Shown here: in pieces, positions 22,169 to 24,554 of the stretch | Layout of the letters: each line of letters begins with the position of its first letter | Numbering within the stretch: the first letter of the stretch is position 1 | From: Nitrosopumilus piranensis | GTDB taxonomy: Archaea > Thermoproteota > Nitrososphaeria > Nitrososphaerales > Nitrosopumilaceae | DNA: 64,000 bases | Assembly (NCBI RefSeq): GCF_000875775.1 | Contig: NZ_CP010868.1 | Coordinates: 1,623,707 to 1,687,706 of the forward strand | Direction: 5' to 3' | Translations under genes and position numbers: made by a program | Notes under the pieces: generated by a model | The model's input: only the letters and a program-made list of their open reading frames with translations | Databases searched by the model: none | Told to the model about the DNA's origin: nothing

Positions 22169-22765
22169 TTGAAAGTAAATTGCAATAAAGAAGGAATTGG
22201 AAAAGCATCAGAAATAATAGAGGAAGGAGGAATAGCTGTATTTCCAACAGATACCGTTTACGGGATTGGTTGCAATCCTTATGATAAAAAAGCTGTAAAA
22301 AAAGTCTATGAGATAAAATCACGGGACTTTGCAAAACCATTTCCAGTCTTGGTTTTCTCAAAAGAGATAGCAAGCCAAATTGCTGATTTTGATGATAAAT
22401 CAAAAAAGATTGTAGAAAAGTTTTGGCCAGGTCAGCTAACAATCATTTTAAAACTAACTGACATGAAACTAAAAGAGTCACTAAATCTAGCAGATAAGAT
22501 TGCACTACGTGTTCCAAATCACAAATGCACACTAGAGCTGCTAGAAAAATGCAAGTATCTAATTGGAACTAGTGCAAATGTTTCAGGACAACCATCATTT
22601 TTTGATCCTCAGGAATGTATCAAAAATGTAGAAAACTATGATGTTTTTGTTGACGGGGGAACAATTACAAGCAAAGGAGAATCAACAATTATTGAGATAG
22701 AAGATGGCCAAATCAAAATTATCAGAGAAGGTTCTTTGAGCAAAGAGGAGATTTTGGGTTTATGA
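22169..22765 (+). CDS. sua5: L-threonylcarbamoyladenylate synthase (Sua5/YrdC family)
   Basis: 198 residues from a TTG. It makes threonylcarbamoyl-AMP from threonine, bicarbonate and ATP for the tRNA t6A modification at position 37. The YrdC fold is indicated by 'GGIAVFPTDTVYGIGCNPYD' (split here as the PTDTVYGIG motif), 'KSRDFAKPFPVL' and 'TSANVSGQPS'. It lacks the C-terminal Sua5 extension, as in short YrdC-type archaeal forms. It overlaps the THUMP gene by 4 bp. A Cgi121-type KEOPS subunit is encoded convergently just downstream, so t6A genes are grouped. Confidence 0.93.
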   Translation: MKVNCNKEGIGKASEIIEEGGIAVFPTDTVYGIGCNPYDKKAVKKVYEIKSRDFAKPFPVLVFSKEIASQIADFDDKSKKIVEKFWPGQLTIILKLTDMKLKESLNLADKIALRVPNHKCTLELLEKCKYLIGTSANVSGQPSFFDPQECIKNVENYDVFVDGGTITSKGESTIIEIEDGQIKIIREGSLSKEEILGL

Positions 22766-23283
22766 ACTTGATAGTAACATGTGCAAGACACCTAGAATCT
22801 GAAACAGAAGATGAGCTAAGGGGATTTCTAGAGGAGTTTGGGGATTCTGATCCCAAAGTTATAATCACTAGCATGTCAGGCATCTTGACTGCAGATACAA
22901 AGTTAGATCCAGTAAAAGTTGTAGGAAAGATCAAGGAGATGTTACTTGATGAGCCATGGAGTGTAAGGTATTGCTTGAGAATCATTCCACTACAGAAAAT
23001 AGTTGAGACAAAAATCGAAGAGATTCAAAAAGTTGTAGAAGAGTTATCAGACAGAATTTCAAAAGATGAAAAATACAGAATATCAATTGAAAAAAGAAAT
23101 TCAGATTTATCCAGTCAGGAAATAATTAAAAAAATTGCAAGCAAGATAGAAAATCAGGTTTCACTAGAATTTCCAGATAAGGTTGTCTTAATTGAAATTT
23201 TGGGCAACAAGACTGGAATTTCTATTCTAAAAAAGTCAGATATTTTGAGCACAGAGAAGACAAAACGCAGTATTTCAGAGTAA
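22762..23283 (+). CDS. THUMP-domain RNA-binding protein (Tan1-like)
   Basis: 173 residues. A THUMP domain covers about residues 70-165: 'SVRYCLRIIPLQ', 'ISKDEKYRISIEKRNSDLSSQEIIKKIASKI' and 'VSLEFPDKVVLIEILGNKTGISIL' follow the THUMP pattern for tRNA binding. There is no methyltransferase or thiouridylase domain, so it resembles Tan1/THUMPD1, the tRNA adaptor for N4-acetylcytidine formation. It is coupled to sua5 by a 4-bp overlap. The 3' end overlaps the convergent MoaD-Cgi121 gene by 9 bp. Confidence 0.88.
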   Translation: MNLIVTCARHLESETEDELRGFLEEFGDSDPKVIITSMSGILTADTKLDPVKVVGKIKEMLLDEPWSVRYCLRIIPLQKIVETKIEEIQKVVEELSDRISKDEKYRISIEKRNSDLSSQEIIKKIASKIENQVSLEFPDKVVLIEILGNKTGISILKKSDILSTEKTKRSISE

Positions 23284-24048
23284 AACTGCTGCCTTTTCTA
23301 CTAGAATATCTTCTAGAGGAGTCTTGGAGTAAACGCAATCAATTTGTTTTTTTGAAATCTTAAAAGATTTTTTTAGAAAGATTGTATTGTTTTTTGAAAA
23401 CAATGGAATGATTAATGGAGATAATTCCTTGTGCAAAGAGTGTAGATTAGTTTTGTTTCCAATTGCAATTAAAATAAAATCAGCATTTGGTTTTATTCCA
23501 ACAGATGCAATTGCAGCAGATATTTGTTTTGTCAATGCAAAGCGCATCAAGATATCGGTTTCAGGTTTGTTTGAAAGTAAGATATCGTTTTTTTGAGACT
23601 CTAGTGAAAGAGATAAGATTTTTTTCATATGATAACTATTCAAAACAAACTGGCTTGATACTGCCTGAAGTTGGAGTTTGGGATATTTTTTTCTTAGATC
23701 ATCGAGAAACTTTACATCAATTGCCTTTTTTCCTTTGATTTGTAGAATCTGTATCTGTTTTGAAGATATTTTGTAGAGTAATTTCTTTGAAGCACCGCCA
23801 TGAATTACAGGAATGATACTAACTACATCATTGTTTTTGATTATAGTTGATTTTCCATCCATTGCAGAAGAATCAGCACCATTAATGGCAATCAGAATGT
23901 TCTCAGTGTCTAATTTTGGAGAATCATCTGGTTGTAATTGTAATAATAGATCAATTAGTTCTTGAATAGTAATGTCTGATTTTCCAATTTCTAGTTGTTC
24001 TTTTGAAAAAGATTTCTTGGCACCGCCAACTAGTTTTACAGTAATCAT
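23275..24048 (-). CDS. MoaD/ThiS-like ubiquitin fold fused to Cgi121 (KEOPS subunit)
   Basis: 257 residues in two parts. Residues 1-85 are a beta-grasp domain of the MoaD/SAMP type: 'MITVKLVGGA', a helix 'TIQELIDLLLQL', 'ILIAINGADSSAM', then 'NDVVSIIPVIHGG' ending in Gly84-Gly85 as in MoaD tails. Residues about 89-257 fit Cgi121/TPRKB, a KEOPS subunit that binds Bud32: 'QAVSSQFVLNSYHMKKIL', 'LLSNKPETDILMRFALTKQISAAIASVGI' and 'FILIAIGN'. The diglycine is internal, not C-terminal, so it could be released only by cleavage. Neighbouring sua5 supports a t6A role. Confidence 0.8.
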   Translation of the reverse strand: MITVKLVGGAKKSFSKEQLEIGKSDITIQELIDLLLQLQPDDSPKLDTENILIAINGADSSAMDGKSTIIKNNDVVSIIPVIHGGASKKLLYKISSKQIQILQIKGKKAIDVKFLDDLRKKYPKLQLQAVSSQFVLNSYHMKKILSLSLESQKNDILLSNKPETDILMRFALTKQISAAIASVGIKPNADFILIAIGNKTNLHSLHKELSPLIIPLFSKNNTIFLKKSFKISKKQIDCVYSKTPLEDILVEKAAVLL

Positions 24049-24083: not shown

Positions 24084-24554
24084 TTATTTAGATTTTTCTT
24101 TGGTGGTTTCAGTTGCCTCGACTGCTGGTGTTTCTGTAGCAGGTGCTTCTGTGGTTTCAGTTGCCTCGACTGCTGGTGTTTCTGTAGCAGGTGCTTCTGT
24201 GGTTTCAGTTGCCTCGACTGCTGGTGTTTCTGTAGCAGGTGCTTCTGTGGTTTCAGTTGCCTCGACTGCTGGTGTTTCTGTAGCAGGTGCTTCTGTGGTT
24301 TCATCTGCAGATTCATAGTCTGCTTGAGCTTGCTGTTCTGCTTTTGAGGATTCAATTCGTGCTTGTTTTTGTTTTTCTTCGCGAATCTCTTTTTTGATAA
24401 ATTTTGTAATATATCCAGCAACTTCGTTTTTTAGGCCCTTTGAGCGTACAATAGAAACTTGATCTAGAACTTTTTTGTTATCAGCAAAATCTTCACCGAA
24501 TTTAGACTTGTGAGTGTCCAAGACTTCGTATGAAAGACGTTTTATTCTATCCAC
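24084..24554 (-). CDS. rps17e: Ribosomal protein S17e with a repeat-built C-terminal tail
   Basis: 156 residues. Residues 1-60 are archaeal eS17: 'IKRLSYEVLDTHKSKFGEDFADNKKVLDQ' and 'SKGLKNEVAGYITKFIKKE' match its helix-turn-helix fold on the small subunit. Usual length is 60-80 residues. The extra 90 are a Lys/Gln helix followed by four exact copies of a 16-residue Thr/Glu/Ala/Pro unit and a Lys-rich end. Such tails are disordered and would project from the ribosome. The tail is coded by a 48-bp tandem repeat. Confidence 0.9.
   Translation of the reverse strand: MDRIKRLSYEVLDTHKSKFGEDFADNKKVLDQVSIVRSKGLKNEVAGYITKFIKKEIREEKQKQARIESSKAEQQAQADYESADETTEAPATETPAVEATETTEAPATETPAVEATETTEAPATETPAVEATETTEAPATETPAVEATETTKEKSK
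24105..24296. repeat. Four perfect 48-bp tandem repeats inside rps17e
   Basis: Copies begin at 24105, 24153, 24201 and 24249 and appear identical by eye. They encode the acidic T/E/A/P tail of S17e. Because 48 is a multiple of three, copy-number change keeps the frame, so the tail can vary in length between strains. The unit also opens cysteine-rich frames on the plus strand, which are not genes. Confidence 0.95.

Follow-up and report, generated by a model that had tools for sequence, protein, structure and literature searches.

Eukaryotes make much of their ubiquitin as fusions. In Ub-eL40, Ub-eS31, and FUBI-eS30, an N-terminal ubiquitin-like protein (Ubl) is carried on an unrelated protein of translation and is freed after a Gly-Gly (GG) pair. 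E1 enzymes activate Ubls at a free C-terminal glycine, as is established for the Ubl superfamily. One of the Ubls, Urm1, has a His-Gly-Gly (HGG) tail and in eukaryotes performs both sulfur carriage and protein modification. In two further described systems, a GG-ending Ubl is joined to a working enzyme subunit. The MoaX protein of M. tuberculosis needs a cut between Gly82 and Ser83 to be active (PMC4326299), and a JAMM protease of D. radiodurans cuts a MoaD–MoaE fusion after the second Gly (PMC8832034).

The fusion of a Ubl with the KEOPS subunit Cgi121 was published in 2010. Makarova and Koonin described it from all Thaumarchaea then available, together with a Ubl–E1 fusion and co-transcription with ribosomal protein S17, and proposed either that KEOPS is regulated by SAMPylation or that the Ubl has an ancestral role in tRNA modification (PMC2948915). 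The passages of the paper that were consulted do not discuss the GG at the junction, its cleavage, or the state in which the two genes are adjacent (PMC2948915). A literature search, with subscription papers mostly outside its reach, found no later work on the Ubl–Cgi121 fusion.

Here we describe the fusion encoded in the window, the whole 64,000-nucleotide stretch of Nitrosopumilus piranensis DNA that was analyzed. Its architecture is that of the Thaumarchaeota fusion described in 2010, including the S17 link and the separate Ubl–E1 fusion (PMC2948915). The fusion resembles MoaX and the D. radiodurans protein in joining a GG-ending Ubl to a working enzyme subunit, but its partner is a subunit of tRNA modification, whereas theirs is the enzyme that uses the Ubl, and the cleavage is one that we infer. 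Its layout is similar to that of the ubiquitin–ribosomal fusions, although the Ubl family and the partner are different and JAMM proteases, not eukaryotic deubiquitinases, would have to make the cut. The fusion itself has been known since 2010; what appears to be new is the signature of the junction, an HGG that is frozen and that was an ancestral free end. Judging from these sequence comparisons, a ubiquitin-like protein of marine ammonia-oxidizing archaea is made joined to Cgi121 and probably cut free after synthesis. If this is true, one of the ocean's most abundant archaeal groups makes its Ubls solely as fusions, and one of these Ubls is born joined to a tRNA-modification subunit, which ties Urm1-type chemistry to KEOPS. 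The locus would then offer a direct test of the link between Ubls and tRNA modification that was proposed from gene context in 2010.

The Fusion Gene and Its Two Domains

The ORF of the Ubl–Cgi121 fusion (23275–24048 of the window, reverse strand) is intact, starts with ATG, and is translated into a protein of 257 aa. Residues 1–85 (23794–24048, reverse strand) form a beta-grasp ubiquitin-like domain of the ThiS/MoaD/Urm1 family. This domain was matched by the Pfam models ThiS (PF02597, residues 12–85, 37.5 bits, cut-off 22.5) and Urm1 (PF09138, residues 2–85, 23.0 bits, cut-off 21.8) as well as by VIA-align. With next to no linker between them, it is followed by the Cgi121 domain of KEOPS at residues 86–257 (23278–23793, reverse strand), which was assigned using the NCBIfam Cgi121 model NF011465 (E 8.7e-47, 159.1 bits, cut-off 40), VIA-align, and mapped CCA contacts. 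The Pfam CGI-121 model reached 22.8 bits on residues 117–251, slightly below its cut-off of 25. The original prediction, in which a beta-grasp domain ends in HGG at residues 83–85 and the chain runs on into Cgi121, thus agrees with the ORF, the Pfam and NCBIfam matches, and the AlphaFold model.

The AlphaFold model of the fusion, built with 38 aligned sequences, has a mean pLDDT of 90.8 and a pTM of 0.67, so the relative placement of the domains in it is uncertain. The structural comparisons by Foldseek and VIA-align, together with the model itself, place the predicted beta-grasp fold, which had been named as a check on the earlier reading, at residues 1–82 and the Cgi121 fold at residues 87–257. 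Residues 87–257 were superimposed by VIA-align on Cgi121 chains, human TPRKB among them (Z 17.4, rmsd 2.8, 164 residues), and align to residues 0–173 of 7szc_B; a Foldseek search with the fusion model matched Bud32–Cgi121 with E 4.8e-9. Residues 1–85 gave Z of 8–11 against the chains of MoaD, Urm1, SAMP1, and TtuB in VIA-align, and Urm1 chains were the top Ubl matches of the domain in both the Foldseek and the profile comparisons.

The residues of M. jannaschii Cgi121 that contact the tRNA 3' CCA have been described (PMC7718258). Four of them, Gln28, Ile72, Ile76, and Gly80, correspond to Q128, I176, I180, and G184 of the fusion, all of which are invariant in the alignment (A2). The contacts Met60 and Lys56 are not retained in the fusion, and Phe21 is not alignable.

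The Ubl domain shares the beta-grasp fold with eukaryotic Urm1 and Haloferax SAMP, and the HGG end with Urm1. Unlike them, the N. piranensis Ubl is made as a fusion and remains under the NCBIfam equivalog cut-offs for Urm1_like (28.4 against 70) and SAMP1 (24.3 against 60), and we therefore term it Urm1-like without classing it as Urm1 or SAMP1. In fact, the equivalog cut-offs of Urm1, SAMP, and MoaD were all failed, and as the profile is short the score cannot choose among them. On the grounds of the HGG tail and of a genome without MoaE, the domain can be judged closer to Urm1/SAMP than to the MoaD of molybdenum cofactor synthesis. Of the earlier label, MoaD/SAMP-like, the SAMP/Urm1 side is therefore kept and the MoaD side is not.

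The His-Gly-Gly Junction

The HGG of residues 83–85 (23794–23802, reverse strand) closes the Ubl domain. It is internal in the fusion, and in sister families it is usually the C-terminus of the protein. The putative cleavage site, directly after Gly85, is suggested by the invariance of this motif, by the tree, and by a low pLDDT. A total of 300 genomes of the host's class were searched for homologues of the fusion, the genome samples being weighted towards MAGs. HGG was kept in all 57 fused proteins from genomes of the host's family and in 80/80 loci of a named genome collection (Nitrosopumilus, Nitrosarchaeum, and relatives), which gives 137 fused loci altogether. Conservation of GG among homologues, on which the original prediction depended, is thus borne out. 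The residue right after HGG is most often Ser in the fused proteins, as it is after the internal GG of MoaX.

Among the 57 fused proteins, the invariant columns are H83, G84, G85, and just 15 others of 257, and the mean entropy is 2.2 bits at positions 86–110 compared with 1.25 in the Ubl domain. On a tree built with FastTree from 116 distinct sequences, parsimony requires no change at position 83, 84, or 85. On the same tree, positions 86–95 require 25, 36, 18, 15, 32, 42, 15, 33, 25, and 37 changes, respectively (mean 27.8). Meanwhile, HGG is the sole run of at least three residues with a pLDDT below 50 in the model. Being the least ordered part of an otherwise confident model, it is unlikely to be conserved for a structural reason, and a disordered linker that merely joined two domains would have no evident reason to be frozen as HGG is. 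The motif appears to be a strong and apparently unreported mark of a processed precursor.

One fused Ubl–Cgi121 locus of another family (L075, 688–1611, genome G271) has HCS in place of HGG, and GG is therefore not absolutely required there. A joint loss of GG and E1 in this genome was considered and rejected: E1 was not found in it, but it is a MAG that is 82% complete, and some other genomes bearing HGG gave no E1 either.

An internal translation start is unlikely as a general source of free Cgi121, as the junction has no conserved start codon. The stretch from codon 63 to codon 136 of the gene in the window contains none, and 79 of the 137 fused genes have none at all at 84–105.

Separate Genes in Related Families

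In the 300 genomes of the class, full-length matches to the fusion came from nearly all members of the host's family, and the matches elsewhere were weaker and often paired. In the other families of the class, the Ubl and cgi121 are two neighboring ORFs, with the Ubl first. Among the 33 outgroup Ubl genes that were read, 24 end exactly at HGG and the other nine carry 1–5 extra residues. The common neighborhood of S17e, THUMP, and Sua5 genes, described below, indicates that the fused and split forms are the same gene pair. Since relatives with these shared neighbors have a split, HGG-ending Ubl upstream of cgi121, the fusion is explained as two old neighbors that lost the stop codon separating them, and on this comparison HGG is the ancestral free C-terminus of the Ubl.

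Whether the fusion is general in thaumarchaea, as the original prediction had asked, depends on the family: it is general in that of the host, but elsewhere the genes are usually separate neighbors. Compared with the "all Thaumarchaea" of the 2010 paper (PMC2948915), the larger number of genomes places the fusion mainly in one family, with two genes in the sister families. Fusions were also found in two further families (L064, L068). Within the host's family, two loci have been split again, one by a stop after HGGA (L225, genome G028) and one by a change of frame seven residues past HGG (L226, genome G105). Outside the class, the Ubl and Cgi121 genes are adjacent in a few families (f29, f50), and in others their matches lie far apart.

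At one outgroup locus (L230, 971–1828, genome G282), the Ubl runs through HGG into an unrelated phosphoribosyltransferase (Pribosyltran, 59.3 bits), with cgi121 adjoining. Full-length Nitrosopumilus-like fusions were also seen in records titled Proteobacteria bacterium or Nitrososphaeraceae archaeon (L163, L190), which are probably misnamed MAGs.

Ubiquitin-like Proteins and Their Enzymes in the Genome

The N. piranensis genome (one contig, 1.71 Mb) contains exactly two ThiS-family matches, and both are fusions with an internal GG. The second is a Ubl–E1 fusion of 447 aa (L002, 433–1776, reverse strand) with PAVAGG-S at the joint; AGG is kept at this joint in the nine other Ubl–E1 fusions that were read. 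The profile search of this genome found no free ThiS-family protein, which rules out a free Ubl of that family as the one performing E1-dependent work in it. Among the matches listed, almost all Ubls of the host's family lie in ORFs sized like the two fusions, and nearly every genome of the family keeps two distinct Ubls. Judged by these matches, the host's lineage appears to have few or no free Ubls of the ThiS family.

The genome also encodes one E1 (ThiF), one Ncs6/TtuA-type tRNA thiolase (TIGR00269), and two Prok-JAB (JAMM) proteases, both with an intact HSHP...S..D motif, so that the JAMM and E1 enzymes that had been suggested as partners of the fusion are both present. The JAMM genes do not lie beside the fusion gene. 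Every genome sampled from the host's family has at least one JAMM. The first JAMM type is a clear match in 19 of the best 20 JAMM loci compared, one of them from a 0.8 Mb genome, and being so widely matched it is the better candidate protease of the two. JAMM is also common where the Ubl is already free, and its presence is therefore not specific. A tie between absence of JAMM and a free Ubl was not upheld: the f7 genomes without JAMM have free HGG-ending Ubls where these were seen (L080, L236), but they belong to one family and provide too few events. At one locus (L215, 716–2598, genome G020), a JAMM gene is followed by an overlapping gene for a Ubl–E1 with a C-terminal rhodanese-like stretch, a physical link between JAMM and Ubl–E1.

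An E1 match was missing in 17 of 150 genomes, 16 of which belong to the host's family. All single-contig genomes of this family have E1. In the E1-less genomes that were re-examined, the threonine synthase gene that adjoins E1 was also missing or was cut at a contig end. The idea that HGG is retained despite loss of E1 was dropped, since these absences look like assembly gaps. In many MAGs of the family, contigs are broken or missing at the threonine synthase/E1 region (L251, L256–L259), which mimics gene loss.

MoaE was absent from 28 of the 29 host-family genomes searched, with N. piranensis among the 28. The remaining genome (G138) encodes on the reverse strand of locus L095 (1459–2136) a MoaD–MoaE fusion in which a GG is internal; MoaA-like and MoaC/MoaB-like coding lies next to it. 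This third type of Ubl was found once and is separate from Ubl–Cgi121.

Proposed Precursor Cleavage and Alternative Explanations

Free relatives end in HGG, and the fused forms freeze HGG beside a variable stretch. The simplest account of both facts is a precursor that is cut after Gly85, and we estimate the probability that this happens and that the Ubl is then activated by E1 at about 0.7. The product of the fusion gene would be the precursor, to be cut after Gly85 by a protease; the likeliest candidates are the two JAMM/Prok-JAB proteins encoded elsewhere in the genome, JAMM being proposed here by family and precedent. The cut would free a Urm1/SAMP-like protein of 85 residues that ends in HGG, ready for adenylation by the E1 of the genome. 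It would also yield a Cgi121 of normal size that enters KEOPS, and the size fits, as Cgi121 released at Gly85 would begin at roughly the same point as the solved Cgi121 chains. The freed Ubl would most likely deliver sulfur to the Ncs6/TtuA-type thiolase in the form of a C-terminal thiocarboxylate and may additionally be attached to proteins. By making both products from one chain, the fusion would hold them at equal amounts and couple t6A synthesis with wobble thiolation. The likeliest role of the Ubl seems to be to carry sulfur for tRNA thiolation, with roughly even chances of being correct, and a job in protein modification is a good deal more tentative. In some methanogens, an Ncs6-type enzyme thiolates tRNA and apparently needs no Ubl to do so. 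The thiolase is therefore no proof that the Ubl of the fusion is its sulfur carrier, and the Ubl of the Ubl–E1 fusion could serve it instead.

The cut might also be used in other ways. If the Ubl were released mainly as a SAMP-like modifier, perhaps of KEOPS or ribosomal proteins, the Ubl of the Ubl–E1 fusion would serve the thiolase, and the two distinct Ubls kept in nearly every host-family genome, among the matches listed, do suggest a division of labor. The conserved S17e linkage points the same way, and SAMPylation of KEOPS or of neighbors such as S17e was proposed by Makarova and Koonin (PMC2948915). The domain is, however, nearest to Urm1 by Foldseek and by sequence, and we consider this use of the Ubl possible but doubtful. 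It is rather improbable that the cut at Gly85 acts as a regulated switch, in which the uncut Ubl restrains Cgi121 and t6A synthesis and cleavage frees both KEOPS and a Urm1-like carrier, turning on s2U34 and t6A37 together.

The original prediction had set release by a protease beside a fold kept as a regulatory module, and conservation strongly favors release, although we infer the cut itself. A chain that stays whole, its Ubl being a permanent KEOPS module that, for instance, covers or tunes the site at which Cgi121 contacts the tRNA CCA or recruits partners noncovalently, would leave unexplained why HGG, disordered in the model and followed by rapidly changing residues, has not changed once, and why related families have a free HGG terminus. 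Giardia Ub-eS31, a known uncleaved ubiquitin fusion, has lost its GG (PMC11354881). Regulation of KEOPS through Cgi121 is nevertheless plausible (PMC7718258), the fusion is kept family-wide and almost linkerless, and the L075 protein is fused without GG, so we rate a permanent module as unlikely rather than negligible. An accidental stop loss between neighbors, without functional meaning and tolerated since both domains fold, would fit the two re-split genomes (G028, G105), in which the fused state may have been dispensable, and the independent fusions in at least two other families (L064, L068). It is nonetheless a poor prospect, given that the fusion persists in almost every member sampled from a large family; moreover, a neutral fusion would still need the cut for use of the Ubl, which leads back to precursor cleavage. 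Finally, the domain gives weak matches to MoaD models and shares the common fold, but we find it hardly credible that it serves molybdenum cofactor synthesis as a true MoaD: 28 of the 29 host-family genomes lack MoaE, and in the remaining one MoaE is fused to a MoaD distinct from this Ubl. For N. piranensis, where MoaE was not found in the genome, such a role of the fusion's Ubl is contradicted.

Gene Neighborhood

The gene for ribosomal protein S17e (PF00833; 24084–24554, reverse strand) lies upstream of the fusion gene on the same strand. S17e adjoins the gene in 79/80 loci of the named collection, in 25 of 27 other host-family loci, and, even on short flanks, in 26 of 34 outgroup loci. Further upstream on the same strand is a TatD-family DNase gene (PF01026; 24585–25403, reverse strand), a neighbor kept in 74/80 named-collection loci. 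As had been noted earlier, sua5 and a THUMP gene are next to the fusion; both are on the opposite strand and convergent with it. The gene for the stand-alone THUMP-domain protein (PF02926; 22762–23283, forward strand) shares 9 bp with the fusion gene at the latter's 3' end and is its convergent neighbor in 80/80 named-collection loci. The Sua5/TsaC gene (22169–22765, forward strand; TIGR00057, 178.7 bits), encoding L-threonylcarbamoyladenylate synthase, is a convergent neighbor in 77/80 of these loci; the product of this enzyme is the substrate for KEOPS. Convergent THUMP and Sua5 genes were seen in 16 of the 34 outgroup loci, again on short flanks.

The sequence coding for the C-terminal tail of S17e contains a perfect 48-bp tandem repeat (24103–24303 of the window, 4.2 copies, 100% matches), which encodes an acidic repeat of the TTEAPATETPAVEA type.
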